A DNA stretch of 64,000 nt from Bauldia sp. (GTDB taxonomy: Bacteria; Pseudomonadota; Alphaproteobacteria; Rhizobiales; Kaistiaceae): NCBI GenBank assembly GCA_020442065.1, contig JAGRKZ010000014.1, positions 1 through 64,000 on the forward strand. Direction: 5' to 3'. Positions 10,947 to 41,049 of the stretch are shown here, in pieces. The position numbers were made by a program, and so were the translations under genes. Every line of letters starts with the position of its first letter. Positions within the stretch are counted from its first letter, which is position 1. The notes under the pieces were generated by a model that had not been told where the DNA came from, made no database searches, and worked only from the letters and a program-made list of their open reading frames with translations.

Positions 10947-10956
10947 CTCACGACAC

Positions 10957-12914: not shown

Positions 12915-12928
12915 CGGACCACCTCCGT

Positions 12929-12944
12929 GTTCCATATATGGAAC
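12929..12944. promoter_or_regulatory. Perfect 16-bp palindrome, putative IclR operator
   Basis: GTTCCATATATGGAAC is a perfect inverted repeat with GTTCC/GGAAC arms and a 6-base spacer. It lies 15 bases upstream of the favoured TTG start of the ATPase gene and about 20 bases after the -10 of the proposed promoter. IclR-family operators usually carry TTCC/GGAA half-sites. Related sites occur at 29897-29914 and 39895-39912. Confidence 0.65.
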
Positions 12945-15097: not shown

Positions 15098-15130
15098 TTG
15101 CTTCGCCTCCTTCGGGTCTTTCATCGGGAC

Positions 15131-15155
15131 GCCGTCAGGCACTCTGCCTGACGGC
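15131..15155 (-). other. Intercistronic hairpin after the binding-protein gene
   Basis: GCCGTCAGGCA and TGCCTGACGGC form a perfect 11-bp stem with a 3-base loop, between the binding-protein stop (15167) and the GH50-like start. There is no U-run on the minus strand, so it is more likely an mRNA 3'-end stabiliser or partial attenuator than a full terminator. Confidence 0.6.
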
Positions 15156-16315: not shown

Positions 16316-16336
16316 GGTGCGTCCTCCTGGTTCTTA

Positions 16337-16356
16337 GGCAGGCACCATTGCCTGCC
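16337..16356 (-). other. Intercistronic hairpin before the binding-protein gene
   Basis: GGCAGGCA-CCAT-TGCCTGCC is a perfect 8-bp stem with a 4-base loop between the permease stop (16378) and the binding-protein ribosome site. With the hairpin at 15131 it brackets the binding-protein message. Confidence 0.5.
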
Positions 16357-16377
16357 GGCCTTTTCAACTTTTGGCGT

Positions 16378-17322: not shown

Positions 17323-17325
17323 GGA

Positions 17326-19829: not shown

Positions 19830-19855
19830 CGGCTGGCTACCCCACCTGGCGCGCC

Positions 19856-21025
19856 TCAGTTGCCGACCGCGACCCAGCGCTCGGTCGCTCCCGATTCGAG
19901 GATCGCGTCGGCAATCAGCGAAATGCGGTATCCGTCCTCGAAGTTGGGCGACGGCAGCTCGCCGCCGACGATGGCGCTGAAGAAGTCGAAGCATTCGATA
20001 ATCTTGGTCTCGCCGTAACCGATGCCGAGGCCGGGGATCGGCCAGAGGTTGGCCCCGTACGGATGGCTCGGGCCGGTGTAGACGGTGCGGAAGCCGCGCG
20101 CATCGCCCGCGTCCGACGCGAACATCACCTGCAACTCGTCGAGGCGCTCGTAGTTGAAGGCGATCGACCCCTCGGTGCCGTGTATCTCGAAGGTGAGGAA
20201 GTTGTTGCGTCCGTGGGCATTGCGCGTCGCCTCTATCGAGCCGACCGCACCATTTTGGAACTTGAGGAGGGTGATGAACTCATCGTCGACATCGACCGTG
20301 CCGCGCGGCCCTTCGCCCGACTTGTCGGACGCACCGAGCATATCGAACCCGCCGGACTGGATCGGGCGCGTCGGCACATAGTTCTGGACTATGGCATTGA
20401 CGGCACTGATTTCGCCGACGAGGTAGCGGGCGAAGTCGATGACATGGGTGCCGATGTCACCGAGGGCGCCCGAGCCGGCGACATCCTTCTGGAAGCGCCA
20501 GGAGAGCGGGCCGTTGGGGTCGGCTGACCAGTCCTGCAGGTAGGTTCCCCGGAAGTTCAGGATTCTGCCGATCCGGCCCTCGTCGATGTACTTCTTCGCG
20601 AGAGCGACCGCCGGCGTCCGGCGGTAGTTGAAGGCGACCATGTGGATCGCGCCGGATGTGCGCGCCGCGTCGAGCATGGTCTTGGCCTCGACACCATTCC
20701 GCGCCAGCGGCTTCTCGCAGATCACGTGCTTGCCGGCCTTCAGGGCGGCGATCGCGATCTCGGCGTGACGATCGTTCGGCGTGACGATGTCGACGACGTC
20801 TATGTCGTTTCGCGCGACAACGGTGCGATAGTCGGTCGCCGACTCCTCGAAACCGTAGCGCGCCGCACCGTCCGCCGCCAGCTCGGGCGTGACGTCGACC
20901 AGCACCTTCCGGCAGGCGAGCGCGGGCGCCGGCCAGAAGAACATCGGCATCGCCGCATAAGCCATCGAATGGGCCTTGCCCATGAAGCCGCCGCCGATCA
21001 TTGCTACGTTGAGTTGTCGGGTCAT
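19856..21025 (-). CDS. Gfo/Idh/MocA family NAD(P)-dependent sugar dehydrogenase
   Basis: The 389-residue protein has the Rossmann motif GGGFMG (residues 11-16), the EKP motif (Glu104-Lys105-Pro106) and a GDIGTHVIDFARYL segment, where Asp and His are the usual catalytic residues. Family members oxidise sugars, inositols or glycosides, often at C3 or C1. It lies between the IolE-like isomerase and the ABC ATPase in operon 2. A glycoside or inositol oxidase role is likely. The exact position oxidised is not visible. Confidence 0.9.
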   Translation of the reverse strand: MTRQLNVAMIGGGFMGKAHSMAYAAMPMFFWPAPALACRKVLVDVTPELAADGAARYGFEESATDYRTVVARNDIDVVDIVTPNDRHAEIAIAALKAGKHVICEKPLARNGVEAKTMLDAARTSGAIHMVAFNYRRTPAVALAKKYIDEGRIGRILNFRGTYLQDWSADPNGPLSWRFQKDVAGSGALGDIGTHVIDFARYLVGEISAVNAIVQNYVPTRPIQSGGFDMLGASDKSGEGPRGTVDVDDEFITLLKFQNGAVGSIEATRNAHGRNNFLTFEIHGTEGSIAFNYERLDELQVMFASDAGDARGFRTVYTGPSHPYGANLWPIPGLGIGYGETKIIECFDFFSAIVGGELPSPNFEDGYRISLIADAILESGATERWVAVGN

Positions 21026-21106
21026 GACGTGCTCATCCGTCGTGTTGAACTGAAGAAAAGGCGGCGACCGGCAGGGAGAAACCGGACGCCAGGGAGAGGA
21101 CGCGCC

Positions 21107-21934
21107 TCACCGTGAGCCGCCGAAGCTGCGCAGGAAGGCCAGGCTCTGGCGCGCCGCCCCCTTGGGGTCGGGCCAGCTATCGAGCTCTGTGGTCACCCAG
21201 CCGTCATAGCCGAGCGCCTGAAGCGTGCGGACGATCGCGCCCATGTCGAGCGTCCCCTGGTCGAGCGGCGTGAAGGCGAAAGGCTCCTTCTGCCAGCCTT
21301 TGAGGTGGACGTAGGAGATCCGGTCCTTATGCTCCTGAAGAAGCGTCGGGATATCGCCTCCCGCGGCGGCCAGGTGGGCGGTGTCGGGGCAGAAGTCGAT
21401 CGACGTCTCAGCGAAGACCTCGCGGACCTCGGCAGGACCCTCGACGATTGTCGTGAGGTGAGGATGGTAGTGGGCGGTGAGCCCTTTCGGCCTCGCGATC
21501 GCTACGACCTTCTCAAGCGCCGCACCCAGGCGCTTGATGTCATCGGGCTTCCGACCGGCGGCGCGCTTTGCGCCGCCGCCGACGACGAGATGCTCGGCGC
21601 CCAGCGCCGCCGCCGCGGCCGCCGCGCGCTCGATCCGGGCGAGTTCCTCGGCCAGCACGTCATCGAAGATGAAGTTGCCGCCGGAATAGACGGCGACCAG
21701 CCTGACGCCGGCAGCGCCAAGGACTGCAGCAAAATCCTTGATCCGGCCCTCATAGTCGAGGAGATTTCCGTCGAAGAGCTCGGTGCCGGTGTAGCCGGCC
21801 TCGCCAATCTCCCCGACAGCGCGCTCCATGTCGCCGAAGGTGCGATAGGTGAGCTGCGTTATTGATGTGACGCCAACCGCGTTTCCGCCAAGCGCGCCCC
21901 AGCAATTTGCGTGATAGGCCAGTTTCCACGACAT
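21107..21934 (-). CDS. Sugar isomerase/epimerase, IolE-like TIM barrel
   Basis: The 275-residue protein starts at ATG 21934 behind GGAGAG. It has the xylose-isomerase-like (AP endonuclease 2) fold: TGTELFDGN near residue 50, HYHPHLTTI near 155, FCPDTAHLAAAGGD near 183 and VTTELDSWPDP near 250. These carry the Glu, His and Asp metal ligands. Relatives dehydrate inosose (IolE), epimerise keto sugars, or act on 3-keto-glycosides. Its partner Gfo/Idh enzyme follows 81 bases downstream. The two would work in sequence on an oxidised sugar. Confidence 0.85.
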   Translation of the reverse strand: MSWKLAYHANCWGALGGNAVGVTSITQLTYRTFGDMERAVGEIGEAGYTGTELFDGNLLDYEGRIKDFAAVLGAAGVRLVAVYSGGNFIFDDVLAEELARIERAAAAAAALGAEHLVVGGGAKRAAGRKPDDIKRLGAALEKVVAIARPKGLTAHYHPHLTTIVEGPAEVREVFAETSIDFCPDTAHLAAAGGDIPTLLQEHKDRISYVHLKGWQKEPFAFTPLDQGTLDMGAIVRTLQALGYDGWVTTELDSWPDPKGAARQSLAFLRSFGGSR

Positions 21935-27686: not shown

Positions 27687-28121
27687 CTAGGTGGACTGTT
27701 CGGGCGTCGGGCGATAAATGGGGCCCCGATCGATGACGGGTTGCAAAAGTCCATCTTGTAGATATTCCGACGGCGCGTCGGGGTCGATCGGGCGTCTCTC
27801 CTGTCCTGGATACCCGATGAGCTGCATGACCCGCGGATTCATATAGTAGGCTGCTGATGCGACGAGTCCGATAGTCGCGAGCGCCCCCGGGTCGGACTCG
27901 TTCAGCGCGCGGGCCGCACCTTCCGGCTCCTTGCCCGCCATGGCGGCAAGGCCGCGAATGAAGGTTTCGAGAAGGTCGTCCCGTAGCGTGAGAATCCGGT
28001 CCAGCGGCGCGCCTCCTACGTCAACCGTACTGGCTGCCGGCATTGCGCCATACGCCGGAATGAGAATGTCGGCAACCGCGACGAAGGTTTCGCGCAGTTC
28101 GTCGTCAATGATGCCACTCAT
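27687..28121 (-). CDS. Gluconate 2-dehydrogenase subunit 3-like protein (LacA-like), no Tat leader
   Basis: The 144-residue protein fits the small subunit of three-part GMC dehydrogenases: ETFVAVADILIPAYGAMPAAS at the start, a helical middle, and YYMNPRVMQLIGYPGQERRPIDPD near the end. The start overlaps the GMC gene stop by four bases. The usual subunit carries a Tat leader and drags the catalytic subunit to the periplasm. Here the chain opens MSGIIDDELRETF with no twin arginine or hydrophobic stretch, so the complex should stay in the cytoplasm. No cytochrome c subunit gene follows. Confidence 0.8.
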   Translation of the reverse strand: MSGIIDDELRETFVAVADILIPAYGAMPAASTVDVGGAPLDRILTLRDDLLETFIRGLAAMAGKEPEGAARALNESDPGALATIGLVASAAYYMNPRVMQLIGYPGQERRPIDPDAPSEYLQDGLLQPVIDRGPIYRPTPEQST

Positions 28122-29779
28122 GCTGCTACCTTCATGTTGCGGCGGTCAGCGATCAAATGCTTAACGCTGCGCAGCGCTACGGCACAGATTGTCCCGGTCG
28201 GATTAAATCCGGCGGATGTCACGAACACGCTGCCATCATAGACAAACAGGTTGGGGACGTCGTGAGACCGTCCCCATTGATTGACGACAGACGTACGAGG
28301 GTCGTTACCCATCTTGCATGTTCCCATGAGATGCCCGGTGGCGCGCAGGCTGGCACCGGTATTGTGCTCGCTCCGGTCGGTCATCAAGCCGCGCACCGTC
28401 ACCGATGTCGCGCCGGCCGCCTCCATGGCCTCTTTCGCCCGGGCAAGGTGGAACTCCGAGAGGCGCTTGGTGTTTTCCGAGTAGTCGTAGATGATCTTGG
28501 CGGCCGGAATGCCATCGCTGTCCGCGAGCTCCGGGTCCAGGACGACCCGATTCGCTTCTTCCGGCAAGTCTTCGGCCATGATGCCCCATTCGAACGAGCG
28601 GCCGAAGATGCGGTCGCGGTTCTGGTGGAATGCCGGACCCCAGGCCTCGTCGAACGGCCGGCCAGGGGCGGGCGGACCGCCCAACGGACCGCCGCCAGGT
28701 AGCACGTGCCACTTGGCGCCGCGCACAAACCCTCGGCTCGTGTCCGTCTCATAGAATTGCATCGACTGGATCGGCTGCCCCGCTGGTCCCAGCCAGCTCT
28801 CGAGCCAGTCGTCGAAATGCCCGACAACAGTCGAGTAAGGATGCAGCATCAGGTTCCGACCAACCAGGCCCGACGAATTGGCGAGCCCATCGGGAAAGAG
28901 GGACGACTTCGAGTTGAGAAGCAGCCGCGGCGTCCCGACACCATTGCAGCAGACGATCACTGCGCGCGCCAGCTGACGCCGTTCGCGACCGTTGCGGTCG
29001 ATATAGACCGCGCCGGTGGCAAGGCCCTGGTCGTTGACAAGGATCTCCCGCACGCGCGCCCCGGCCACCAACCTGAGGCCGTGCTTCAGCGCCGCGGGAA
29101 GATGGGTCACATCGAACGTCGCCTTGGCGCCCTCGACGCAGCCGTTCCGGCATGTGCCCCTGAGAGCACAGGGATTGCGGCCTTCAAATGACCGCGAGGC
29201 AATCGAGTTCGGCGCCGGCCACCAGTGCCAGCCAAGCTTGTTCATACCCTCGGCAGCCTTGCGTCCCATGCGGCCAATGGGCAGTGCCGGCAAAGGGGGT
29301 CCCTTGCCGGCCGGCAGTGCCGGATCGCCTCCGAGACCGGAGACGCCGATCTCCGCTTCCATTTCGTCGTAGTAGGGGGCGAGGTCCTCGTAGGTGAAGG
29401 GCCAGTCGTCCGCCACCCCATCAAGCGTCTGCACCCGGAAGTCGGACGGCATGAAGCGCTGCCAATGCGCTCCATAGACGATCGATGTCCCTCCGACAGC
29501 ATTGTACATCAGGATCGGGACGTCGGATTCCGAGGTGTTTACCGGATAGTCGCTTTCCAGATCCCGCACATTCGGATTGGGATGCCAGCGTTTTTGAATC
29601 ATCAGTTCGAACTCGGGCTTGTCGCCCCAGTAGCTGCCGTGGTCGACACGCTCGCCCTGCTCCAGGCAAACTACGTCGAATCCGCTCTGCGTCAGGTGCT
29701 TCGCGGCAACGAGCCCCGAGGGACCGGCGCCGACGATCAAGACTTCGGCGACTTTGGAACCCTTGTTCACCGATACCAT
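28118..29779 (-). CDS. GMC-type FAD sugar dehydrogenase, catalytic subunit (LacB-like)
   Basis: The 553-residue protein has the FAD motif VGAGPSG (residues 16-22), the GGTSIVYGAHWQRF segment of GMC enzymes and the C-terminal GHLMGTCKMG and FNPTGTICA motifs, which carry the catalytic His and Asn. Cys204, Cys210 and Cys214 (NPCALRGTCRNGC) match the cysteine-rich loop of sugar dehydrogenases that hold a small Fe-S cluster. Relatives oxidise gluconate or the C3 of glycosides. It is divergent from etfB, with a shared 260-base control region, so electrons probably go to that ETF. Confidence 0.88.
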   Translation of the reverse strand: MVSVNKGSKVAEVLIVGAGPSGLVAAKHLTQSGFDVVCLEQGERVDHGSYWGDKPEFELMIQKRWHPNPNVRDLESDYPVNTSESDVPILMYNAVGGTSIVYGAHWQRFMPSDFRVQTLDGVADDWPFTYEDLAPYYDEMEAEIGVSGLGGDPALPAGKGPPLPALPIGRMGRKAAEGMNKLGWHWWPAPNSIASRSFEGRNPCALRGTCRNGCVEGAKATFDVTHLPAALKHGLRLVAGARVREILVNDQGLATGAVYIDRNGRERRQLARAVIVCCNGVGTPRLLLNSKSSLFPDGLANSSGLVGRNLMLHPYSTVVGHFDDWLESWLGPAGQPIQSMQFYETDTSRGFVRGAKWHVLPGGGPLGGPPAPGRPFDEAWGPAFHQNRDRIFGRSFEWGIMAEDLPEEANRVVLDPELADSDGIPAAKIIYDYSENTKRLSEFHLARAKEAMEAAGATSVTVRGLMTDRSEHNTGASLRATGHLMGTCKMGNDPRTSVVNQWGRSHDVPNLFVYDGSVFVTSAGFNPTGTICAVALRSVKHLIADRRNMKVAA

Positions 29780-29890
29780 GCGGCGATCCTCCCGTCTTCT
29801 TTCGGTCCCCAGCGCGGACGATTCTTACTCGCGGCCCCCCGAACCGGATCGAAGCTTGCCAGAGGCATCCCAGCGATGCAATATGAAAGA

Positions 29891-29914
29891 GAACTTAGTT
29901 CCTAATTGGGAACT
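29891..29914. promoter_or_regulatory. Composite inverted repeat between the GMC and etf genes
   Basis: GAACTTAGTTCC (29891-29902) is followed directly by a second half, so that AGTTCC-TAATTG-GGAACT (29897-29914) is an inverted repeat with a 6-base spacer. The same 12-mer GAACTTAGTTCC occurs at 39850-39861 and the same GTTCC-N6-GGAAC layout at 12929-12944. It lies in the divergent promoter region and could control both directions. Confidence 0.6.
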
Positions 29915-30039
29915 GAATGAGAAAACTTAACCGACAGCCGCCGTGTTGCCTTGACCCGAGAAAGGTGGACGGCGGCCAAAAAATTCGGCGAGCCCGCGGT
30001 CACATTCTAAACAGTACCGCGATCGGGAGGTCTGCTGGG

Positions 30040-30816
30040 ATGCATATAATGGTCGTGCTGAGGCTGGTGGCGGATCTCGGAGGAGATATCGAGATCGCCC
30101 ACGGCGGAAAGGACATCGACCGCGAGTGGGTCGATCTCAAGCTCAATGAGTTCGACGATCATGCGCTCGAGGAAGCAATCTTCCTCAAGGAGATCGTGGG
30201 CGCCAAAGTCACCGCCATTATGATTGACGGCGACGGCGTCGAGAGGTCGCTCCAAACTGCGCTGGCACGCGGCGCGGACGAAGCGCGGCGAATCGCGGTA
30301 GACGATACTGATGGTCCAATCTCGTCGCGCGCCATGACGCCTGTGGTTGCGGCAGCCGCCGCCGAGCTTGGTGCCGACCTCGTGCTTACTGGCGTACAAA
30401 GCCCGGAAGACATATTCGGCCAGCTCGCACCCAGTCTCGGCGCTGTGCTCGGATGGCCTCAAGCCAGCGCTGTCAGCAGTGTGAAGCCCGACGACGGTTC
30501 GACCATCACCGTGCAGCAGGAGTATAGCGGCGGGGTCTCGGCGGCCATCCGCCTACCGCTGCCCGCCGTGCTCGGCGTCCAGACGGCGTCGCGTCCAATC
30601 CGGTATGTCACCGGCAGCAAGCTCCGGCAAGCAATGGCGGAAGAAATCCCTCGCATCGAGGCGACGGCAGCCGTCGCCATGCCGGATGTTGAGATCGTCG
30701 AGCTCCGCGTCCCGGACGAGGCCGGCGGAGCGGTGATGCTCGATGGTGATGCTGATGCGATCGCCGACGAAATCTTGAGGCTGCTGGCCGACCGCGCCTT
30801 GCTGCAGGTATGCTGA
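30040..30816 (+). CDS. etfB: Electron transfer flavoprotein beta subunit
   Basis: The 258-residue product (ATG 30040 behind GGGAGG) shows the ETF-beta pattern: IDREWVDLKLNEFDDHALEEAIFLKE near the start, GVERSLQTALARGADEARRI, then LVLTGVQSPEDIFGQLAPSLGAVLGWP, which carries the AMP/FAD-contact loop. The fold is typical in length. The two genes etfB and etfA overlap by one base (TGATG), so subunits are made in equal amounts. This pair resembles the ETFs associated with DgcB-type membrane proteins rather than the housekeeping ETF. Its donor here is most likely the GMC dehydrogenase. Confidence 0.9.
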   Translation: MHIMVVLRLVADLGGDIEIAHGGKDIDREWVDLKLNEFDDHALEEAIFLKEIVGAKVTAIMIDGDGVERSLQTALARGADEARRIAVDDTDGPISSRAMTPVVAAAAAELGADLVLTGVQSPEDIFGQLAPSLGAVLGWPQASAVSSVKPDDGSTITVQQEYSGGVSAAIRLPLPAVLGVQTASRPIRYVTGSKLRQAMAEEIPRIEATAAVAMPDVEIVELRVPDEAGGAVMLDGDADAIADEILRLLADRALLQVC

Positions 30817-31781
30817 TGAAAGACGTTCTGGTTTACATCGAGCTCATCGAGGACGGCGTTAGGCCATCCTCAAGGGAGGCGGTTTCGGCCGGCCGCGAGA
30901 TCGCTTCTGCGACCGGCGGGTCGGTCATCGCCCTGATCGCCTCCGGAGAGCCTGTGGGCGTCCCCACGCTGGATGGGGTCGACCGGATTATTCACGTCAC
31001 CCATCCGGCGCTCGGTGCTTACACTGCGGAGGCACACGCCGCCGTGCTCGCCGACATGATCGCCAAGCTTGATCCCGCGGCCGTGATGCTGGCCTATACC
31101 ACCGCGGGCCTTGACCTAGCCTCCGCCGTCGCCGTGACTGCAAGCTTGCCACTGGTCGCCTACTGCACAGACGTCACCGTCGCGGACGGCGCGTTGACCA
31201 CCACAAGTCAGATGTATGGGGGACGGCTGGAAGCCGTCGTCCGCGCGCCGCTTCCCGTGGTGGTGTCAATCATGCCCGGAGCCTTTCCGGAGGCGGTAAC
31301 GACCGGAGCAAGTCCTGAGATCATAGTCCAGGACGCGCCAAAGTCCCTCGACGCCCTCCGTTCCGTCTTCGTCGACGAGCAACGGCCGGCCCGCGGTAGC
31401 TTCGACCTTTCGCTCGCCGAACGCATCGTCTGCATAGGCCGCGGGATTGGCGCCGCGGACAGCATCGCTGTCGCTCGCGAGCTTGCAGATGCGCTCAACG
31501 CCGAAATCGCGGGCAGCCGGCCCGTAATCGACCAGGGTTGGCTGGAAAAGGAGCGCCAGGTCGGGAAGTCCGGCCGCCTCGTCAAACCCAGGCTGTATAT
31601 CGGTCTCGGAGTATCGGGTGCACCCGAGCATCTTGAAGGCATGCGTTCCTCCGACCTCATCATCGCGGTGAACTCCGACGCCGCGGCGCCAATCTTCACC
31701 GTGGCGCACTATGCGGCGGTATGCGACATGTTCGACCTCGTGCCGGCCCTCATAGAACGCCTGAAGGCCGGAACCCCCTGA
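30816..31781 (+). CDS. etfA: Electron transfer flavoprotein alpha subunit
   Basis: The C-terminal half carries the ETF-alpha FAD signature: SRPVIDQGWLEKERQVGKSG near residue 230, then LYIGLGVSGAPEHLEGM and DLIIAVNSDAAAPIFTVAHYA. I prefer ATG 30816 (321 aa), coupled as TGATG to etfB. An ATG six bases earlier is possible. The N-terminal half is the less conserved ETF domain I. One base separates its stop region from the membrane Fe-S gene, so the three genes are one operon. It passes electrons from a flavin dehydrogenase to that membrane protein. Confidence 0.92.
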   Translation: MKDVLVYIELIEDGVRPSSREAVSAGREIASATGGSVIALIASGEPVGVPTLDGVDRIIHVTHPALGAYTAEAHAAVLADMIAKLDPAAVMLAYTTAGLDLASAVAVTASLPLVAYCTDVTVADGALTTTSQMYGGRLEAVVRAPLPVVVSIMPGAFPEAVTTGASPEIIVQDAPKSLDALRSVFVDEQRPARGSFDLSLAERIVCIGRGIGAADSIAVARELADALNAEIAGSRPVIDQGWLEKERQVGKSGRLVKPRLYIGLGVSGAPEHLEGMRSSDLIIAVNSDAAAPIFTVAHYAAVCDMFDLVPALIERLKAGTP

Positions 31782-31782
31782 C

Positions 31783-33726
31783 ATGACACCCACGATCGTG
31801 CTCTGGCTGCTGCTCGGCGCGGCAGTCGCCGTACTCCTATGGCGATCATCAAGGCTGATAGGCCCGGTCATGATTTCCCAGCCGGCGATGCGGTTTGATC
31901 AGCCCGGAAGACGGCTTCAGGGCCTCCTGGCCGCCATCGGTCACCGCCGGCTTATTAGGAACCGCTACTCCGGCATCCTCCACGCCATGATCTTCGTGAG
32001 CTTCTTCGTGCTCGCTACCGCGATCGTCCAGTCCTTCGGCTCTGTCTTGTTTCCCGGATTCAGCCTCGCGCCAGTGGGCGGCGATACCTGGATTGCGCTC
32101 GCCCAGGATGTGTTCGCCATCGTCATGCTGACGGGCGTCGCTCTTGCCGCATGGCAGCGACTCGTTCTTCGACCCGCCCGGTTCAAAGGTTCGAACAATA
32201 CCGACGCCAACATCATATACATCCTGATCGTCATCATCGTTGTCACCATGCTGCTTGAGGCAGCGTTCGCAATCGTCGCCGGCAGTGGCGCCTCGGCGAT
32301 ATGGAGGCCGGTTTCTGCGACGCTGGGGGCCGCCTTCACCGCAATGAGAATGTCACCAGAGTTCGCCAGCCAAGCCCACGACGTCTTCTACTGGCTGCAT
32401 GTCGGAGCGATCCTCGCGTTCGTCGTCTACATTCCCGGTTCGAAGCATCGGCACATGTTGCTCGCCGCTCCCAACGTCTATTTCCGTAGTCTGAAACCGA
32501 TAGGGCAGATTCCGCGGCCGACGCCCGAAGTCCCGCCACCGCCACTGGCAGCAGCAACCGACTTCGCGTGGAAAGACATGCTTGATACCTACGCCTGCAC
32601 GGAGTGCGGGCGCTGCCAGGCGGCATGTCCGGCATACGCTTCCGGCCTGCCCCTGAGCCCGAAGCTCCTGATCACTGACCTTCGCGATCACTTCGTGACC
32701 CAACCGGCCGATGCGCCGATCGTCGGGCCCACGATCAGTGAAGACACGCTTTGGGCCTGCACCACATGCCGCGCCTGCATGGAGGTCTGCCCGGTCCACA
32801 TCGAACACTTGCCCAAAATTATAGGCATGCGACGGACGCTCATCGAAAACGGCAATATCCAGCCGATGCTTCAGACGGCCCTGTCGAACTTGCAGCGGGT
32901 CGGAAACTCGATGGGCACGGCCTCCAAGATGCGTGCGCGCTGGACCAAGGGACTTCCGTTCAATGTCAAGGATGCACGAAAGGAACCGGTTGACGTGCTT
33001 TGGTTCGTCGGGGACTTCGCCTCTTACGATCCGCGCGTACAGGAGATCAGCCGAACCGTAGCACTCCTGTTCCAGCGTGCCGGCGTCGACTTTGGTATCC
33101 TTTATGACAGCGAGCGCAACAGCGGAAACGACGTCCACCGCGTCGGCGAGGAAGGCTTGTTCGAGACACTTGCGCGCGAAAACATCGCGACGCTCTCGGC
33201 CTGTACATTCAAGCGAATCGTAACCACCGATCCGCACAGCCTTAACGCGCTGGCGCAGGAATACAGTGCTTTCGGAGCAACCTACGACGTCGTCCACTAC
33301 TCGGCCTTCCTCCTTGAGCTTGTCGAGGCCGGCCGACTGCCTCTAGGACCAACGGAGAGGCGAACTGTCACCTACCACGATCCGTGCTATCTCGGCCGAT
33401 ACAATGGCGGCTTCGACGCGCCCCGCGCACTGATTGCCAGGGCTGGGTGCGCGATCAACGAGATGGGGCGCTGCCGAGAGAATTCGTTTTGCTGCGGCGC
33501 CGGCGGTGGCCGCATCTGGCAAGACGATTCGGCCATGACCGAGCGACCGAGCGAGAATCGGATTCGGGAGGCCCTCGCGCTCGGCGACGCGGAGCTGTTT
33601 GTCGTCGCCTGCCCCAAGGACAGTGTGATGTACGGAGCCGCCATCGATGCCTTGGGGGTATCCGACCGTATCAAGGTCGTCGACTTGGCAGAGCTCGTCA
33701 TGTCGGCGGCAGAGACGCACTCGTGA
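31783..33726 (+). CDS. Membrane Fe-S oxidoreductase, ETF:quinone oxidoreductase of the EMO/DgcB type
   Basis: The 647-residue protein has five to six N-terminal membrane segments (residues 5-25, 65-85, 105-125, 145-165, 200-218) with His67, His206, His222 and His224 as possible heme b ligands. Two ferredoxin-type clusters follow (Cys272/275/278/282 and Cys326/329/332/336). The C-terminal heterodisulfide-reductase-like half has two CCG-type motifs (HDPCYLG and CCGAGGG). Such proteins sit beside etfAB and hand electrons from ETF to the quinone pool, or act with dimethylglycine demethylases (DgcB). Here no DgcA-like gene is present and a GMC enzyme takes that place. Confidence 0.88.
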   Translation: MTPTIVLWLLLGAAVAVLLWRSSRLIGPVMISQPAMRFDQPGRRLQGLLAAIGHRRLIRNRYSGILHAMIFVSFFVLATAIVQSFGSVLFPGFSLAPVGGDTWIALAQDVFAIVMLTGVALAAWQRLVLRPARFKGSNNTDANIIYILIVIIVVTMLLEAAFAIVAGSGASAIWRPVSATLGAAFTAMRMSPEFASQAHDVFYWLHVGAILAFVVYIPGSKHRHMLLAAPNVYFRSLKPIGQIPRPTPEVPPPPLAAATDFAWKDMLDTYACTECGRCQAACPAYASGLPLSPKLLITDLRDHFVTQPADAPIVGPTISEDTLWACTTCRACMEVCPVHIEHLPKIIGMRRTLIENGNIQPMLQTALSNLQRVGNSMGTASKMRARWTKGLPFNVKDARKEPVDVLWFVGDFASYDPRVQEISRTVALLFQRAGVDFGILYDSERNSGNDVHRVGEEGLFETLARENIATLSACTFKRIVTTDPHSLNALAQEYSAFGATYDVVHYSAFLLELVEAGRLPLGPTERRTVTYHDPCYLGRYNGGFDAPRALIARAGCAINEMGRCRENSFCCGAGGGRIWQDDSAMTERPSENRIREALALGDAELFVVACPKDSVMYGAAIDALGVSDRIKVVDLAELVMSAAETHS

Positions 33727-33825: not shown

Positions 33826-34767
33826 TTAGATCACGCCGCTCCGTCCGGGCTCAATGAACGGCCGGAGCTCCGCCCACAGCGTCTCGTCGATAGGGTGGTC
33901 GAGCAGCGCGAGGGTCTCGTCGAGGCGGGCCGGAGTGGACATGCCGACGATGGTCGAGGCCACCCGCGCGTCCCGCGTCGAGAACTGGAGCGCCGCAGCA
34001 GCGAGCGGCACATCGTGCGCCTTGCACAGCGCCTCCATCGCCCGGACGCGGGTGAGGGTCGCCGCGGATGCCGGGGCATAGCAGTAGCGCGGAACCGCGT
34101 CCGGACCCTTGACGAGCATGCCGCCGCCATAGGGGGCGGCGTTGACGAAGCCGACATCGCGCGCCATGCAGGTCTCGATCAAAGGTTCCGCCGATTGGTC
34201 GACCAGCGTATAGCGGTTGTGGCTGATGATACTGTCAAAGAGGTCCGTCGAAAGATACCGCAGCATCAGGTCGATTGGTCCTCCGGCCACGCCGAGATGC
34301 GCGATGACCCCCTCGTCGCGCATCTTCACCATCGCCTCGACGGCGCCGCCAGATGCCATACCTGCTTCGAAGGTCATCTTCTCGGGATCGTGGAGATAGA
34401 CGATCTGGAGCCGCTCAAGGCCAAGTCGCTCGAGGCTTTCCTCGACCGAACGGCGCACACGGTCTCCGGAGAAATCGGAGCTGCCCGGGAGCGGATCGAC
34501 CTTGGTCGCTAGCACGAAGCCCGGTGGCAGGCCGCCCGCCTCGCGGATCGCTATGCCTATGCGACGCTCGCTGTCGCCGCCATGACCGTATTCGTTCGAC
34601 GTGTCGATGAAGTTGATAGGGCCGGCGAATGTGCGGCGAATGGTTGCCACGGCCACATCGGTGCCGACCGCGTAGCCGTACTGCTCCGGGAAGCTGCCGA
34701 GGGCGCTCGTACCGACGCAGAGCGGGGTGACCGGCAAAGAGGTTCGACCGAGGGTACGCTTCTCCAT
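33826..34767 (-). CDS. Aldo/keto reductase, aldose (L-fucose-type) dehydrogenase-like
   Basis: The 313-residue protein (ATG 34767 with AAGGAA nine bases upstream; a TTG 9 bases earlier is less likely) has the AKR tetrad Asp55, Tyr60 (FIDTSNEYG), Lys89 (ATKVD) and His126 (YLHDPE). The sequence style and the GG near residue 211-213 (APYGGGMLVKG) resemble D-threo-aldose or L-fucose 1-dehydrogenases, which make aldonolactones with NAD(P). It is the last gene of the ABC/nitrilase operon. It could feed an aldonic acid to the dehydratase of operon 1. Confidence 0.82.
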   Translation of the reverse strand: MEKRTLGRTSLPVTPLCVGTSALGSFPEQYGYAVGTDVAVATIRRTFAGPINFIDTSNEYGHGGDSERRIGIAIREAGGLPPGFVLATKVDPLPGSSDFSGDRVRRSVEESLERLGLERLQIVYLHDPEKMTFEAGMASGGAVEAMVKMRDEGVIAHLGVAGGPIDLMLRYLSTDLFDSIISHNRYTLVDQSAEPLIETCMARDVGFVNAAPYGGGMLVKGPDAVPRYCYAPASAATLTRVRAMEALCKAHDVPLAAAALQFSTRDARVASTIVGMSTPARLDETLALLDHPIDETLWAELRPFIEPGRSGVI

Positions 34768-34833
34768 CTGTGGCAATTCCTTACTATTGGCGGCGGGTTG
34801 GAGCGCAGGCCGGAGGACGGCGTCGCTGCATTT

Positions 34834-35898
34834 TCACGGTCCGGTGCGCCGCTTGCCCCGCAGCGAAGACACCGCCGCCGAGATTCGTTCGACGCCGCCC
34901 GCACTCGAGAGGAACACGGCGACAAGAATCACCGCTCCCTTGATGACGAGCTGGGGCTCGGACGAGATTCCGACAAGGTTCATGATATTAATGATCGTGG
35001 CCATCACGAACACGCCGATAACGGAATTGACCGGATTGCCCTTGCCGCCAACAAGCGACGCGCCGCCAACCACGACTGCTGCGATCGCATCGAGCTCACT
35101 CCCACGCCCGACCAGCGAGCTGCCCTGAAGAAGTTGCGCGGCAGCGACAAGGCCGGCAAGACCGGCGAGAAAACCGGACAGCGAATACGTCACCAGCAAA
35201 TCGCGGTTGACCGGCAGTCCCGAGAGGCGCGCCGCTTCGCGGTTGCCGCCGATCGCATATAGGCGTCGGCCAAATGTCGAGTAGCGACTGACTATCGCTG
35301 CGGCGACGGTCACGAAGAGAAAGATCATGACTGGATTGGGAATTCCCAACACGCGACCGTCGGAGAACCAGGTTACGAACGTCTGGTTCTGAATGTAGAT
35401 CAAGCTGCTCGACTGGATGATGTAGCTGAATCCCTGGACGACGCTCATCATCGCCAACGTGGCGATAAAGGGTGGGATCCGCACCCAGACTACGAGAAGC
35501 CCGTTGCCGAGGCCAAAGCCGGCGCAGACCGCGAGCGTGAAGACAACGGCGATGCCGGCATCGACGCCGGTCTGAAGGGTGAGGGCGACGACCACGGTCG
35601 CCAGCGCGAGGATCGCGCCGACCGAGAGGTCGATGCCGCCCGTGACGATGACGTAGAACTGGCCGACCGCAAGGATAGCGACAATCGACGAGAAGGAGAC
35701 GACGTTGCTGAAGTTGCGTACCGTCAGGAAATTCGGCGAGACTAACGCGCCGACGATGACGATCAGCACGAGTACCAGGATCAGGTAGCTCTGCGGCAGG
35801 AGACGCCGGAGGGCGCCGGATACCCCACCACGGCCCGATGCGGTATTCCCGGCTGTCGTTGCCCGTGGCGGTATCTCGCCCTGTGCCGTCGCATTCAT
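34834..35898 (-). CDS. Ribose-type ABC transporter permease (operon 3)
   Basis: The RbsC-family protein has VTGGIDLSVGAILALATV, FIATLAMMSVVQG and FGRRLYAIGGNREAARLSG motifs and about nine membrane segments. I prefer ATG 35898 (354 aa), which has GGGGAGAG six bases upstream. An earlier ATG at 35937 overlaps the ATPase stop by four bases but has no ribosome site. Only one permease gene is present, so the channel is probably a homodimer, unlike in the other two operons. Confidence 0.9.
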   Translation of the reverse strand: MNATAQGEIPPRATTAGNTASGRGGVSGALRRLLPQSYLILVLVLIVIVGALVSPNFLTVRNFSNVVSFSSIVAILAVGQFYVIVTGGIDLSVGAILALATVVVALTLQTGVDAGIAVVFTLAVCAGFGLGNGLLVVWVRIPPFIATLAMMSVVQGFSYIIQSSSLIYIQNQTFVTWFSDGRVLGIPNPVMIFLFVTVAAAIVSRYSTFGRRLYAIGGNREAARLSGLPVNRDLLVTYSLSGFLAGLAGLVAAAQLLQGSSLVGRGSELDAIAAVVVGGASLVGGKGNPVNSVIGVFVMATIINIMNLVGISSEPQLVIKGAVILVAVFLSSAGGVERISAAVSSLRGKRRTGP

Positions 35899-35933
35899 GG
35901 CCGCTCTCCCCGTCCCGTTCGCCGCCGCCCTTG

Positions 35934-37490
35934 TCATGCAAAGTGGCGGATGATTTCCGCGCCGTCGCTGCCCACGTCGTCGTGCGCGAGTTCGGCGACC
36001 ACCCGGCCCCGCGCCATGACCAGTACGCGGTCGCAGAGGACGGCCTCGGATATCTCCGAGCTTGCAATGATCACCGTGCCCCCGGACCGCGCGAAGTCGG
36101 AAAGCAGCGCGTACATCTCCTCCTTGGCGCCGACATCCACGCCCCGGGTAGGTTCGTCGCAGATCAGGATGCGCGCCGAGCGCACCAGCCAACGCGCCAG
36201 GATTCCCTTCTGTTGTGTGCCGCCGCTCAGGGTCTTCATGGACTGGTCGACGCCGGAGATGCGCATCTCGAGCCGCGCGGCGATGTCACGTGCGGTCTGG
36301 CCAATTCGGCGGTCGTTCAGCATGCCAAGACGGCTGAACATCGGCAGGCTTGCGAGGCTCATGTTGTCCGCCACGCTCATGTCGGGGACGAAGCCGTGCG
36401 CTTTCCGATCTTGCGGCAGCAGCCCGATACCGAGCCGGATCGCGTCACGTGGCGAGGCGAAGTTGACGGGCTTCCCCTCAAACGCGATCGTGCCGGAGGT
36501 GCGCTGACGCGCGCCGGCAAGCAAGCTGACAAGGGTCGACTGTCCGCTGCCGACGAGGCCCGTTACGCCCAGGACCTCGCCACGGCGCAGTTCTAGGCTC
36601 GTTGGTTCGACCTTCCCCGTCTCGGCAAGTCCCTGTACCGAGAGGATGACGTCACCGACCTCGCCTGTCCCCAGCCGCGGATGCGTTCCGCCGCTCAGCG
36701 AGGCCTCCTGAATCGAGCCCTTAAGCGCCTTGCCGAGCATCGCGGAAATGACATCGGCCGGGGTTGTCTCCGCGGTCGACATCGTGGCGACGCTCTGGCC
36801 GTCGCGAATCACGGAGACCGTGTCGCAAAGCTCGTACAGCTCGTCCATGCGGTGCGAGATGTAGATCATTGTCTCGCCCTCCTGCGCGAGCGCTTTCAGC
36901 ACGCTGAAAAGGCGGTCCACATCCGGAGGCGGAAGTGCCGAGGTCGGCTCGTCGAGAAGGATGACGCGCGCCCGTTTGCGCAGCGCCTTGGCGAGTTCGA
37001 CGGCCTGCTGCTCGGCGACCGAAAAGGATGACACCGGCTTTCGCACATCCATCTCGAAGCCAATGCGGGCCAGTGCCTTTTCGGCCTCACGGTGCATCTG
37101 CCGCCAGTCGACGACCGGCACCGGCGCACGGCGCGGCAGCATGCCGAGGAAGATGTTCTCCGCGACTGACAGCTCCGGCACCAGGCTGAGCTCCTGGTAG
37201 ATCGTCTGTATGCCGGCCGTCTGCGCGTCGATCGGTGAGTGAAGATGAACCTGCTTGCCACCGAGCAGGAGCCGGCCCTCGTCCGGAATCTCGGCGCCGG
37301 AGAGAATCTTGACGAGCGTCGACTTGCCCGCGCCGTTCTGGCCGGCCAGGGCATGAATGCTGCCGGCGCGGACGCTGAGGCCGACACCATTCAGCGCACG
37401 GACGCCCGGATAGTACTTGACAATACCCTCAGCAAGCAGCTCAGGCTCCGGCCTACCTTGCCGCACGACGGCTTCCGCTGCTTGGTTCAT
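35934..37490 (-). CDS. RbsA-type sugar ABC transporter ATPase (operon 3)
   Basis: Two ABC domains are present in 518 residues. The first has GQNGAGKST, then VAEQQAVELAKAL in place of a full signature, and VILLDEPTSAL. The second has GLVGSGQSTL, the signature LSGGTQQKG and LICDEPTRGVD. This pattern, with a degenerate first signature, is normal for RbsA and XylG. ATG 37490 is chosen because the longer reading adds unrelated sequence. It lies between the binding protein and the permease. Confidence 0.92.
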   Translation of the reverse strand: MNQAAEAVVRQGRPEPELLAEGIVKYYPGVRALNGVGLSVRAGSIHALAGQNGAGKSTLVKILSGAEIPDEGRLLLGGKQVHLHSPIDAQTAGIQTIYQELSLVPELSVAENIFLGMLPRRAPVPVVDWRQMHREAEKALARIGFEMDVRKPVSSFSVAEQQAVELAKALRKRARVILLDEPTSALPPPDVDRLFSVLKALAQEGETMIYISHRMDELYELCDTVSVIRDGQSVATMSTAETTPADVISAMLGKALKGSIQEASLSGGTHPRLGTGEVGDVILSVQGLAETGKVEPTSLELRRGEVLGVTGLVGSGQSTLVSLLAGARQRTSGTIAFEGKPVNFASPRDAIRLGIGLLPQDRKAHGFVPDMSVADNMSLASLPMFSRLGMLNDRRIGQTARDIAARLEMRISGVDQSMKTLSGGTQQKGILARWLVRSARILICDEPTRGVDVGAKEEMYALLSDFARSGGTVIIASSEISEAVLCDRVLVMARGRVVAELAHDDVGSDGAEIIRHFA

Positions 37491-37637
37491 GGAACACGCC
37501 AGTGAAGATCGAGGTCGAGGAAGGCTAGTCCCTATTTCCGCCCGATGCGACACCCGCGAGACGGACGGAAGGGCCTAGGGGGCACTCCCGACGGAAGCGC
37601 CCCTGGGGTTCCGGCGAAAACACGCCCGGCGCGGCGG

Positions 37638-38690
37638 CTAGTCGCCAGCGCGCATGTAGGTTTCGTCGGCCTTGTAGTACTGGGCCGCGGTCTCCGGCGT
37701 CACCACCGAAGTCTCCACGTAGTTCGTCTTGTCGGGGCAGGCCGAGGTATCGTTGTTGTAGGCCGCGACCGCCATCTTGACGGCGAGGACCGCCTGGTCC
37801 CACGGCTGGTTGGAGGCGACCGCCTGCATGGGGCCAGTCGGATCATCCATCATCTGCTTGAGCACGACCATGCCGCCATCGTAGCTGCCGATCAGCAGTC
37901 CGTCGCCCCACACGCCCGCCTGGCGGAGGCCCTGCGTGATGCCGCCGTTCATGACGTCGCTCATGCTGAACAGGATCTTGAGGTCGGGATTGGCCGTGGC
38001 CATGTCGCGGATCGGGGTAAGGGCCTTGTCCGGCTTCCACTCGCCGAACTTCATCGGCAGAATGTCGAGCGTGATGTTCGGATACTGGTCGAGAACGCTC
38101 TTCAGTCCCTTCATGAAGCCATTGAAACGCAGGTCGCTGATGACGTCGCCGGGAAAGCCGCCGATGCTGCCGAGCTTCCAGGTGCCGCTGTCGCCGAACT
38201 TCTCGATGGCCTTCCGCCCGATGATCTCGCCAGCCAGCGCGCCCGTCGCCTCCTGGTCCTCGGCCACGTAGCAGAACATGTCGCCGACGAGCTGCGGGTC
38301 GAGGTTGGAGTTCACCGTCACGAGCGGGATGCCCGCCTGCTTCAGCGCCTTGACCGAGGCAGCGACACCGATCGGATCATTGGCATTCATGATCACGACG
38401 TCCACGCCCTTGCTGATCAACGTCTGGACATCCTGGTTCTGGCGGGTCGTATCGCCATTGGCGTCGAGGACGTCGATCGTGGCGCCGATTTTCTGGGCTT
38501 CCGCCTCGCCCCCGGCGATCAGCGTCTTCCACCAGTCGCTGCCCGACAGGCCGCGCTGGCTCCAGCCGATGACCAGACCCTCGCCCGTGGATTTGTCGGC
38601 CGAGGCGGGCGAGATGAGCGCGCTACTCGCCAAGGCGGCGAGAGCGAAGAGCGAAATCGCAGCGCGGCTGCGCCGTTCCGTGCAGTTCAT
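37638..38690 (-). CDS. Periplasmic sugar-binding protein (operon 3)
   Basis: The ATG at 38690 has GGGAGAAG six bases upstream and gives 350 residues. The leader (RAAISLFALAALASSALISPASA) ends near residue 31, and the mature part opens GLVIGWSQRGLSGSDWWK. The fold is the Peripla_BP_4 type (VVIMNANDPIGVAASVKALKQAGIPLVTVNSN). It is not a close paralogue of the three related proteins in the operon-2 region. A cysteine pair (MFCYVAED and SACPDKTN) may form a disulfide. The ligand is unknown. It might be an amide-bearing sugar, given the hydrolase just upstream. Confidence 0.9.
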   Translation of the reverse strand: MNCTERRSRAAISLFALAALASSALISPASADKSTGEGLVIGWSQRGLSGSDWWKTLIAGGEAEAQKIGATIDVLDANGDTTRQNQDVQTLISKGVDVVIMNANDPIGVAASVKALKQAGIPLVTVNSNLDPQLVGDMFCYVAEDQEATGALAGEIIGRKAIEKFGDSGTWKLGSIGGFPGDVISDLRFNGFMKGLKSVLDQYPNITLDILPMKFGEWKPDKALTPIRDMATANPDLKILFSMSDVMNGGITQGLRQAGVWGDGLLIGSYDGGMVVLKQMMDDPTGPMQAVASNQPWDQAVLAVKMAVAAYNNDTSACPDKTNYVETSVVTPETAAQYYKADETYMRAGD

Positions 38691-38729
38691 GGCATCTTCT
38701 CCCATTTGCTTGTTCTTCTCACTCAGGCG

Positions 38730-39815
38730 TTATGCATTCGAGGGCGGCGTAAACACGCCCCGGTTTACGAGCTCCTTGATGGCGTTGGCGCGGGTCGTCT
38801 CCTCGCGCTTGAGCCAGCCTTCCGCGGGAGGCCGGTCGAGGTACTGGTTCTTGGGATAGATCGGCTTCTCGTAGATCGCCGCGTACTGCTCCGTGCGCAG
38901 GTCCTTGAACTGGTTGTAGAGGCCGTTGGCGATCCGGGCGCGCCGGAGGGCCTCGACGTCGATCACCGTGGTCACGAACGAGTCGCCCGACGTCCAGCCA
39001 CGCTGCTCAGCGACGATTGCGCCGCGATTGTTGACGATCATCGAGCGGCCCCCGAACAGATCCTGGATGCCGCCATCCTTGAGGATCTCGGGGCCGAGAT
39101 TGGGGGCAACGACATAGACCTGGTTGAACATCGCGTGTGCGCGGTTCTGCAACTCCCACATTCCGTTCATCACCGCGGGCTCGATCAGCGTGGGGCGGAT
39201 AATGATCTCCGCGCCGTTCATAGCAAGGCCGCGCACGATCTCCGGGTAGACGCCCTCGTGGCAGATCGCGATGCCGATGTTGCCGATCTCGGTCCGTGCC
39301 ACCGGGAAGATCGCATCCATGACGCTGCCATTGCCGCGCTTGGCGATGAACTCGTCCCACACGTCATGCGGATTGGCGTTGCCGAGCATGCCGCCCTCAT
39401 AGGCATCGCTCGTCGCCTTGTAGCGCTTGTAGATGATCTCACCCTGCGGCGACACGATGAACGCGACATTGAAGTACACGTCGGGGAAATCAGCATCGCG
39501 AACCATGTAGAGCTCGGCGGCGATGTGAGCGTTGATCGCTTTGGCCTTGCGGCAGAGCTCATCGGTCTCCGGCCCGGGGATCTCCATCGCGTATTTCGCT
39601 TCGGCGGCACGGTTGCCAGGGGTGTTCGCGATTAGACCCTGGATCGCCATTTCCGGGATTACGACAAGACGGGCGGGAGCACCTTCCCACGCGCCGACCA
39701 TACATGCCGTATCCATGAAGCTGCAGATGCGTTTGACGTTCTTGAGCGCGTCCTCGCGCTTCTCGATCGTGAACGTCCGAGGCGAAAGCGCCACGACGGC
39801 GTACGGTTCGATCAT
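38730..39815 (-). CDS. Nitrilase-superfamily carbon-nitrogen hydrolase
   Basis: The 361-residue protein has the Glu-Lys-Cys triad: Glu55 (VVIPEMA), Lys133 (KRYKATS) and Cys185 (AICHEGVYPE). The Trp/Arg-rich C-terminal part is typical of aliphatic-amidase and formamidase-like branches. It should hydrolyse an amide or nitrile to acid and ammonia in the cytoplasm. Start 39815 follows GGGGAGGG at ten bases. It is first after the IclR gene and precedes a sugar ABC transporter, and two candidate IclR boxes lie in its promoter. The substrate may be an amide of a sugar acid, which is inference. Confidence 0.88.
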   Translation of the reverse strand: MIEPYAVVALSPRTFTIEKREDALKNVKRICSFMDTACMVGAWEGAPARLVVIPEMAIQGLIANTPGNRAAEAKYAMEIPGPETDELCRKAKAINAHIAAELYMVRDADFPDVYFNVAFIVSPQGEIIYKRYKATSDAYEGGMLGNANPHDVWDEFIAKRGNGSVMDAIFPVARTEIGNIGIAICHEGVYPEIVRGLAMNGAEIIIRPTLIEPAVMNGMWELQNRAHAMFNQVYVVAPNLGPEILKDGGIQDLFGGRSMIVNNRGAIVAEQRGWTSGDSFVTTVIDVEALRRARIANGLYNQFKDLRTEQYAAIYEKPIYPKNQYLDRPPAEGWLKREETTRANAIKELVNRGVFTPPSNA

Positions 39816-39848: not shown

Positions 39849-39861
39849 GGAACTTAGTTCC
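39849..39861. promoter_or_regulatory. Putative IclR operator, proximal
   Basis: GGAACTTAGTTCC is a near-perfect inverted repeat overlapping the proposed -10 of the nitrilase-type gene. Twelve of its bases (GAACTTAGTTCC) are identical to 29891-29902. Confidence 0.6.
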
Positions 39862-39878
39862 CAAAAAAATCGAGTCAA
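39851..39878 (-). promoter_or_regulatory. Putative sigma-70 promoter of the nitrilase/ABC operon
   Basis: On the minus strand TTGACT (39878-39873) is followed after 16 bases by TAAGTT (39856-39851), which is only a fair -10. The start codon is 36 bases downstream. The promoter is flanked by two inverted repeats. Confidence 0.45.
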
Positions 39879-39894
39879 CCAAATAATGGAAATC

Positions 39895-39912
39895 AGTTTC
39901 CATATAGGAACT
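39895..39912. promoter_or_regulatory. Putative IclR operator, distal
   Basis: AGTTTCCATATAGGAACT is an 18-base inverted repeat with one mismatch, upstream of the -35. Its core TTCCATATA is shared with the perfect palindrome at 12929-12944. Confidence 0.55.
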
Positions 39913-39925: not shown

Positions 39926-40810
39926 TTATTCGTCGCCGCGAGAGGTTGCGCGAGACGGCACGCCGGCCAATGTCTCTTCGACCTCTTTCGCTGCCGCCAT
40001 CAGCGGGCGGGCAAGCTCGCGCAGCTTTTCGAACGATCCGCGCTGGAGCGGCAGAGAAAACGACATGCTCGCCACAGGCCAGCCGGGCGCGTCGATCGCC
40101 ACGCCGACGCAACGGACGCCAGCATAGGCCTCCTCGCAATCGAAGGCGTAGCCCGCCTGACGGATCTCCGAAAGCCGCGTAACAAGTGCCTTTCGGGTCC
40201 TTATCGTGTTGGGCGTGCGTGGCGTCAGGCGATCGGGCAATAGCTGCAGGGCGGCTTCGCCGCGAAGGGCGAGTGCCGCGAGCCCGCCGGAGGTACAATA
40301 GGCCGGATGGCGCCGGGCGATCGCCAGCCGCACAACCTGTTGGGGGGGGTCGATGCGATCGATGATGATCTCGTCGGTTCCATCGAGCACGCCGATGTGT
40401 CCAGTCTCATTGTACTTGGCGACCAGCCGCCGCATCACCGGGGCAATGACAGTGAGCACGTCACCCGGACGAGTGGTGGTCCCCGCGAGCTCATATGTCG
40501 ACCAACCGACCGAATACCGTCCGGTCTCATCCCGACGAAGGAAGCCGAGCGTTTCGAGCGTGAACAGGAGCTTGTGAAGCGATGCCTTCGGCAGCTTCAT
40601 TTTCAGCTGCAGATCGACGAAGCTCTGTGACGCGCCGCTGCGCGACACGTCGACAAGGATGTCGAGCGCCCGCGCGACGCTTCGATTTATGCCGCGGCCA
40701 GAAGCCTTGGGCGTGCTGTTCGGCCCAGCTTTTGGTTCAATCCGGCCAAAGCCCTCCTCGCGCACGCGACGCGTCGCAGGAGCGGAAGTCGTGGGTCTCA
40801 CCGTGGGCAT
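39926..40810 (-). CDS. IclR family transcriptional regulator (operon 3)
   Basis: The ATG at 40810 has AGGAG eight bases upstream and gives 294 residues. A low-complexity N-terminus of about 45 residues precedes the winged helix (SVARALDILVDVSRSGASQSFVDLQLKMKLPKASLHKLL). The effector domain begins near residue 125, with HIGVLDGTDEIIIDRID and AGVRCVGVAIDAPGWPVASMSFSLP. The boxes at 39849 and 39895 sit between its stop and the next gene, so it is a strong candidate for binding them. It may also bind the related sites at 29891 and 12929. Confidence 0.88.
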   Translation of the reverse strand: MPTVRPTTSAPATRRVREEGFGRIEPKAGPNSTPKASGRGINRSVARALDILVDVSRSGASQSFVDLQLKMKLPKASLHKLLFTLETLGFLRRDETGRYSVGWSTYELAGTTTRPGDVLTVIAPVMRRLVAKYNETGHIGVLDGTDEIIIDRIDPPQQVVRLAIARRHPAYCTSGGLAALALRGEAALQLLPDRLTPRTPNTIRTRKALVTRLSEIRQAGYAFDCEEAYAGVRCVGVAIDAPGWPVASMSFSLPLQRGSFEKLRELARPLMAAAKEVEETLAGVPSRATSRGDE

Positions 40811-41049
40811 TGAACAACTCCTGCTGAGGCGTGACGACGAATATATTGGTGAGGCCTGAATTACAAACGTATCCGCCGCGTTCACCGCTACCGAGCGGGA
40901 CGATGCCTCCCGGCTCGGCTTCGCCTGCGCCGCGCGGCCAAGTCCGGCTCTGACGTCCTTTTTTTTTGATCCAGCCGCCGGGGGAAGGCGATAATGGCCC
41001 TCCGTCTACCGGTTCGCCGAAAAACGATTGCTCAGCATGCCTCTCACTT

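Follow-up and report, generated by a model that had tools for sequence, protein, structure and literature searches.

How does a sugar-type dehydrogenase that lacks both an export signal and a neighbouring cytochrome gene pass its electrons to respiration? The question is raised by a locus in a 64,000-nucleotide stretch of a Bauldia sp. genome (hereafter the window; on contig 124 of a 5.36 Mb assembly in 277 contigs), in which the genes for a GMC-family dehydrogenase and its small subunit diverge from genes for an electron transfer flavoprotein (ETF) and a membrane Fe-S protein. We consider it probable that this locus encodes a cytoplasmic GMC complex that would feed the quinone pool through a dedicated ETF and an EtfD-type quinone reductase, with a sugar-like compound as substrate. 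The proposal builds on gene identities, cluster ligands, the absence of leader peptides, a recurrent and specific gene linkage and a shared control site, all of which are established computationally. The gene inventory listed in a first-pass annotation of the letters alone, comprising a GMC dehydrogenase with Cys204/210/214, a leaderless small subunit and divergent etfB, etfA and membrane Fe-S genes, was recovered in full from the open reading frame (ORF) list and Pfam:

27687..28121, minus strand: small subunit, a Gluconate_2-dh3-like "hitchhiker" without leader, 144 aa, no cysteine (ORF; PF13618 matches of relatives; model)
28118..29779, minus strand: GMC dehydrogenase, 553 aa, C204-x5-C210-x3-C214, His483/Asn526 pair (Pfam GMC N and C; PDB; fold)
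29890..29914, strand not applicable: operator-like palindrome AGAACTTAGTTCCTAATTGGGAACT, within the divergent control region of 260 bp (whole-genome pattern count)
30040..30816, plus strand: etfB, ETF beta subunit (PF01012, 4e-26)
30810..31781, plus strand: etfA, ETF alpha subunit with FAD domain (PF01012, 2e-31; PF00766, 7e-30)
31783..33726, plus strand: EtfD/DgcB-type ETF:quinone reductase, predicted, with five transmembrane-like segments, two [4Fe-4S] motifs and a CCG domain (match to 9ojn; transmembrane plot)

Leftward from the control region, the GMC gene is followed by the small subunit gene with an ATGA overlap between them; rightward, etfB, etfA and the gene for the 647-aa membrane Fe-S protein follow one another without gaps. 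The etfB start at ATG 30040 aligns with relatives, and a longer frame from 29917 is unlikely.

A leaderless relative of FAD-dependent glucose dehydrogenase

The best PDB sequence matches of the GMC protein are Burkholderia cepacia FAD-dependent glucose dehydrogenase (FAD-GDH; E 9e-56) and Gluconobacter fructose dehydrogenase (2e-53), and its AlphaFold2 model (pLDDT 80.6) matches the folds of the same two enzymes (Z 40.6 and 42.2, respectively), with pyranose oxidases next (Z 32.9). FAD-GDH and fructose dehydrogenase are therefore its nearest known enzymes by sequence and fold, in a comparison from which LacA is absent as it has no solved structure; this corrects the earlier label of a LacAB/gluconate-dehydrogenase-type enzyme. 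Of the small-subunit family, 23 of 50 members match PF13618 (Gluconate_2-dh3; best 4e-8). Mycofactocin-linked MftG was dropped as a candidate identity, with an NCBIfam score of 78.6 against a cut-off of 387.

Cys204, Cys210 and Cys214 align with Cys212, Cys218 and Cys222 of B. cepacia FAD-GDH, the ligands of its surface [3Fe-4S] cluster (PMC6719666). All 34 aligned sequences keep these three cysteines and His483, with Asn526 nearly invariant, and the window protein is predicted to carry the C-x5-C-x3-C-bound surface cluster typical of FAD-GDH catalytic subunits. The pair thus shares with FAD-GDH and fructose dehydrogenase the GMC fold, these ligands, the His/Asn pair and an adjoining small subunit gene. 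It differs from them in having neither a Tat leader nor a cytochrome c subunit gene, with ETF and EtfD genes in their stead, in the loss of the inter-subunit disulfide cysteines and, relative to FAD-GDH (gamma-alpha-beta), in having V101 in place of the His105-type flavin-contact residue. In FAD-GDH, Cys213 is disulfide-bonded to the small subunit in the periplasm; the equivalent position here is Ala205, and both partners of this Cys213-Cys152 bond are absent from the window pair.

Only 15 codons of open frame precede the GMC start (568 vs 553), and the small subunit already begins at the first possible start after a stop codon, so that no Tat leader fits either protein. A leader hidden by a misplaced start, which the first-pass annotation had considered, is thus impossible here, and none was seen across the family, whose small subunits begin directly before their first helix. 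As a positive control, a small-subunit paralogue in the same genome does have a Tat leader (MTGLSRRDVILA...), the signal that on FAD-GDH small subunits accompanies a periplasmic enzyme. Locus L069 (9525-11607) of this genome thereby contrasts with the window: its pair is of the classical periplasmic type, with a small subunit bearing a Tat leader (PF12318, FAD-SLDH) and the motif CCGNASCIPIC.

The absence of an adjoining cytochrome subunit gene was likewise borne out: none of the ORFs within 20 kb has a credible c-type haem motif, the one-haem cytochrome at 62951 being about 33 kb off among other genes. No multi-haem ORF occurs in the window that could correspond to the tri-haem cytochrome c of FAD-GDH and fructose dehydrogenase, and only one was counted near the loci of surveyed relatives; a distant cytochrome subunit elsewhere in the genome was not searched for. 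Overall, these sequence features suggest that the GMC protein and its small subunit reside in the cytoplasm, the compartment in which ETF works.

Recurrent linkage to ETF genes

Which acceptor would such an enzyme use? Relatives were fetched by GMC similarity alone, and their flanks, read up to 8-10 kb, were then scanned for other genes; all trees were quick ones with SH-aLRT support only. Within the supported GMC subclade of the window, etfBA was found in the flanks of 17 of 40 rows (15 of 37 distinct loci), as opposed to 2 of 44 rows outside it (Fisher 4e-5). A 5-Mb genome holds two or three ETF pairs, so etfAB would be expected nearby by chance in about 1-2% of cases, a background against which the binomial tail for 17/40 is below 1e-15. 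Counted among the 17 are two weak cases from Streptomyces (L027 and L030), where aldehyde dehydrogenase, permease and arginase-family genes stand in front of etfBA, which is 4.5 kb away. The GMC and ETF sets are adjacent or divergent, with no gene between them, in 11 loci.

The search for other genomes that the first-pass annotation had proposed was positive, distant bacteria included: a leaderless GMC, small subunit, etfBA and EtfD occur together in Afifellaceae, Rhodospirillales, Shinella, Agrobacterium, Conexibacter and two same-family relatives. Gene order varies, with a co-directional GMC-sub3-etfB-etfA-(Fe-S) arrangement on Agrobacterium plasmids and in a Conexibacter metagenome-assembled genome (MAG), and GMC-sub3-etfB-etfA behind a sugar ABC system in Shinella. 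Rhizobium ruizarguesonis carries etfB-etfA-GMC-sub3-ETF-QO (ETF-QO confirmed by PF05187 and PF21162), that is, the same dehydrogenase with a different ETF and an unrelated quinone reductase in place of EtfD. In the EtfA tree, GMC-linked ETFs fall on at least three separate branches, of alphaproteobacterial, actinobacterial and housekeeping type. That a single dehydrogenase family has recruited unrelated ETFs more than once would otherwise be hard to explain, and points to ETF as its acceptor.

Two further arrangements were observed among these loci. One etfBA-EtfD set is followed by two tandem GMC-small subunit pairs in L023 (8001-12174), and in the same-family relative L061 a second, choline-dehydrogenase-like GMC gene (11931-13559) stands directly before etfB-etfA, hinting at further GMC-ETF pairings.

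The linkage also holds when read from the other side. In a reciprocal search from EtfD, all plasmid matches above 50% identity adjoin this GMC, and the 8 EtfDs nearest to that of the window form a clade with 100% support whose members are all GMC-linked. Other EtfD clades adjoin dehydrogenases of their own, namely OYE/TMADH-like proteins (TMADH, trimethylamine dehydrogenase), DgcA or a TcuA-like flavoprotein. The cassette is therefore a portable exit module, as a rule encoded alongside the dehydrogenase that supplies it, which here would be the GMC protein. The Dgc (DgcA-DgcB-EtfA-EtfB) and TMADH-like OYE-EtfD-EtfBA cassettes resemble the window in placing EtfAB and an EtfD/DgcB-type protein beside a dehydrogenase, but there the dehydrogenase is of the OYE family rather than a GMC protein with a small subunit, and the EtfD and EtfA sequences belong to separate clades. 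The OYE protein of the sister cassette carries a TMADH-type 4Fe-4S motif.

ETF usually serves acyl-CoA, dimethylglycine or trimethylamine dehydrogenases, and the association of sister EtfD clades with OYE-type dehydrogenases could be taken to mean that the cassette serves another flavin dehydrogenase encoded elsewhere, DgcA-like or an acyl-CoA dehydrogenase, and lies next to the GMC gene by accident. We regard this as unlikely. Housekeeping ETF and ETF-QO are encoded separately in the genome, ETFs of three lineages and two quinone exits are found paired with this GMC, and the Agrobacterium operons contain no other ETF-type dehydrogenase. Among 23 genomes with a GMC of the window's family, EtfD is present, beside the GMC gene, only in the two with the linked cluster, and missing from the 21 without it. 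As for a DgcA-like partner, which the first-pass annotation had also contemplated, the window holds no such OYE-family gene beside the ETF genes, and DgcA-like cassettes belong to other EtfD clades.

The ETF and its predicted quinone reductase

EtfB has an ETF domain and EtfA both ETF and FAD domains, as expected of a genuine ETF. The genome holds a second, housekeeping etfBA pair and one ETF-QO, plus one partial ETF match on another contig; the housekeeping ETF was rejected as the identity of the ETF in the window, being a separate lineage in the EtfA tree. The closest solved beta subunit to EtfB is the ETF of TMADH (E 2.6e-26), whereas EtfA best matches solved subunits of two complexes, caffeyl-CoA reductase-Etf and lactate dehydrogenase-Etf. 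Such matches would fit an ETF that bifurcates or confurcates electrons in an energy-coupled way, like that of lactate dehydrogenase-Etf, rather than simply passing them to quinone. This is however very improbable, as the N-terminal extension of those proteins is absent from the EtfA of the window (its matches start at their residue 68-70, and only two ETF Pfam domains are present), EtfB is closest to the TMADH ETF, and the cassette ends in a quinone reductase gene.

The membrane Fe-S protein matches Mycobacterium smegmatis EtfD over its whole length (9ojn, E 3.9e-90), and that EtfD has been shown to pass electrons from ETF to the quinone pool (PMC13083937). With five predicted transmembrane helices, two [4Fe-4S] motifs and a CCG domain with D2 cluster residues, it is by all appearances an EtfD/DgcB-type ETF:quinone reductase, with a predicted role in electron transfer. 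The cluster cysteines are conserved, and the D2 site is kept except for Asp613 in the position of the last cysteine. It shares the two [4Fe-4S] motifs and the D2 residues with mycobacterial EtfD but lacks the four D1 (linear [3Fe-4S]) cysteines, which are also missing from the homologues FadF and DgcB (PMC13083937). At residue 613, GMC-linked and most OYE-linked relatives read CPKD, as opposed to CPxC in EtfD and DgcB, so that Asp would replace the last Cys at their non-cubane D2 cluster. Few genomes carry EtfD (19 of 385 alphaproteobacterial genomes; 9 of 101 relatives), and the window holds the only copy in this genome.

A proposed electron route and points against it

Taken together, we propose that the ribose-type ABC transporter encoded nearby would bring a sugar-like alcohol into the cell whole, where the GMC protein and small subunit would act as its cytoplasmic dehydrogenase, with hydride passing from substrate to FAD at His483/Asn526. 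Single electrons would then move from this FAD, by way of the surface [3Fe-4S] cluster, to that of EtfAB, and reduced ETF would deliver them to membrane-bound EtfD and on to quinone. TMADH offers a precedent for such a step, as it passes electrons to ETF through its [4Fe-4S] cluster. ETF and EtfD would thereby do the work that a tri-haem cytochrome c subunit does in FAD-GDH and fructose dehydrogenase. The first-pass annotation had inferred a cytoplasmic enzyme in which ETF replaces the cytochrome, a proposal that the reading frames favour and for which the recurrent linkage is strong comparative support. We infer electron transfer from gene linkage; the contact between the proteins, the direction of electron flow, the cytoplasmic location and the substrate class would likewise follow from genomic evidence.

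Several observations weigh against this route. More than half of the subclade (23 of 40 rows) has no ETF in the flanks read; these members may encode their ETF elsewhere or use another acceptor. The transporters beside GMC relatives are of several types, and the substrate of the family is therefore probably not one compound. The small subunit of the window has itself no Pfam match, PF13618 included, its model (helical, pLDDT 92; the sequence has no Cys, transmembrane segment or leader) gave no significant match in the PDB, and none to the FAD-GDH gamma chain, and its hhalign alignment with the Tat-bearing paralogue was insignificant. Because the structure searches gave no match, its kinship to the gamma chain rests on the Pfam matches of relatives.

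The ETF-free rows, together with the use of oxygen by pyranose oxidases of the same fold class, would also suit a cytoplasmic GMC that passes its electrons directly to quinone, to oxygen or to a small cytochrome, with ETF as an auxiliary or alternative acceptor only. We consider this improbable, since the invariant [3Fe-4S] ligands point to a one-electron protein acceptor and no alternative acceptor gene was seen recurring beside the family in the surveyed relatives and annotated plasmid loci.

Known electron donors of ETF include the dehydrogenases of acyl-CoA, dimethylglycine, trimethylamine and a few hydroxyacids, and no GMC-ETF link was found in the open-access literature (most subscription papers were not covered). 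It is likely, in our judgement, that the proteins described here belong to a widespread cytoplasmic GMC class that has independently taken up ETFs of at least three lineages and ETF:quinone reductases of two unrelated kinds, which would represent cytochrome-free, [3Fe-4S]-to-ETF sugar oxidation and the first ETF-reducing members of the GMC superfamily. If true, this would extend the list of ETF donors to a large family used in biotechnology, which includes the glucose-sensor enzyme FAD-GDH, and would explain how leaderless relatives of FAD-GDH connect to respiration. It would also provide a soluble, readily testable partner protein for a GMC dehydrogenase, and gives a putative function to many genes on rhizobial plasmids annotated only as "GMC family oxidoreductase" or "hypothetical protein".

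A shared control site and the putative substrate

Downstream of the EtfD gene, a second operon and a regulator gene complete the locus:

33826..34776, minus strand: aldo/keto reductase, end of the transporter operon (PF00248, 2e-43)
34834..38705, minus strand: ribose-type ABC transporter, with permease, ATPase (35934-37553) and binding protein (37638-38705) (ORFs; orthologues)
38730..39815, minus strand: nitrilase-superfamily amidase, first gene of the transporter operon (PF00795, 2e-27)
39849..39912, strand not applicable: second copy of the site, lying 34 nt ahead of the amidase start codon (GGAACTTAGTTCC at 39849-39861; AGTTTCCATATAGGAACT at 39895)
39926..40885, minus strand: IclR-family regulator, candidate for both operons (ORF; 29% match; role inferred from position)

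The pattern RGAACTTAGTTCC occurs exactly twice in the whole genome, in the divergent control region and at 39849, 34 nt before the amidase gene; as the pattern was derived from the site itself, its rarity counts as support and not as a blind test. A similar element is found in the Afifellaceae locus L022. This shared, operator-like site ties the GMC and ETF genes to the amidase, ribose-type ABC transporter and aldo/keto reductase operon beside the IclR gene. From its position, the IclR protein, a 29% match to a Pfam-confirmed IclR protein beside the GMC/ETF locus in L041, is a candidate regulator of both operons.

The same neighbours recur in other genomes. An aldo/keto reductase orthologue (73%) adjoins EtfD in the Afifellaceae MAG (L022), where ABC orthologues adjoin the GMC gene; related ribose-type transporter sets occur in L023, L026, L047, L052, L057 and L058, several distant loci with the GMC also have ribose-type transporters, and an amidase homologue (57%) adjoins the GMC gene in Sphaerisporangium (L039). 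A KDPG aldolase and a PfkB kinase lie near the GMC relative in L041, and other relatives adjoin MR/MLE or ilvD dehydratases, aldolases and sugar ABC systems. Judging from this gene content, the substrate is likely sugar-like or sugar-acid-like and imported intact.

Other genes in the window

Positions 15167-21934 encode a levoglucosan dehydrogenase (NF052479, 707.6 bits, cut-off 650), a xylose-isomerase-like TIM barrel and a ribose-type ABC transporter, and probably represent a levoglucosan catabolic cluster, a pathway that has been published (PMC7676230). A direct link between the GMC/ETF genes and this cluster, 7 kb away, was dropped, as LgdA is not conserved beside other GMC loci. The genes at 5688-12945 encode a DHDPS-type aldolase, an L-rhamnose-mutarotase-like protein, an MR/MLE aldonate dehydratase and an ABC transporter; in front of them, at 12928, stands TGTTCCATATATGGAACG, which nearly repeats the palindrome. 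Between the two sugar ABC systems, positions 13940-15142 encode a 400-aa protein with no Pfam or NCBIfam match. At the other end of the window, a long, mostly leftward run (41352-62472) of putative phage tail or prophage structural genes is followed by the one-haem cytochrome c ORF at 62843-63172.

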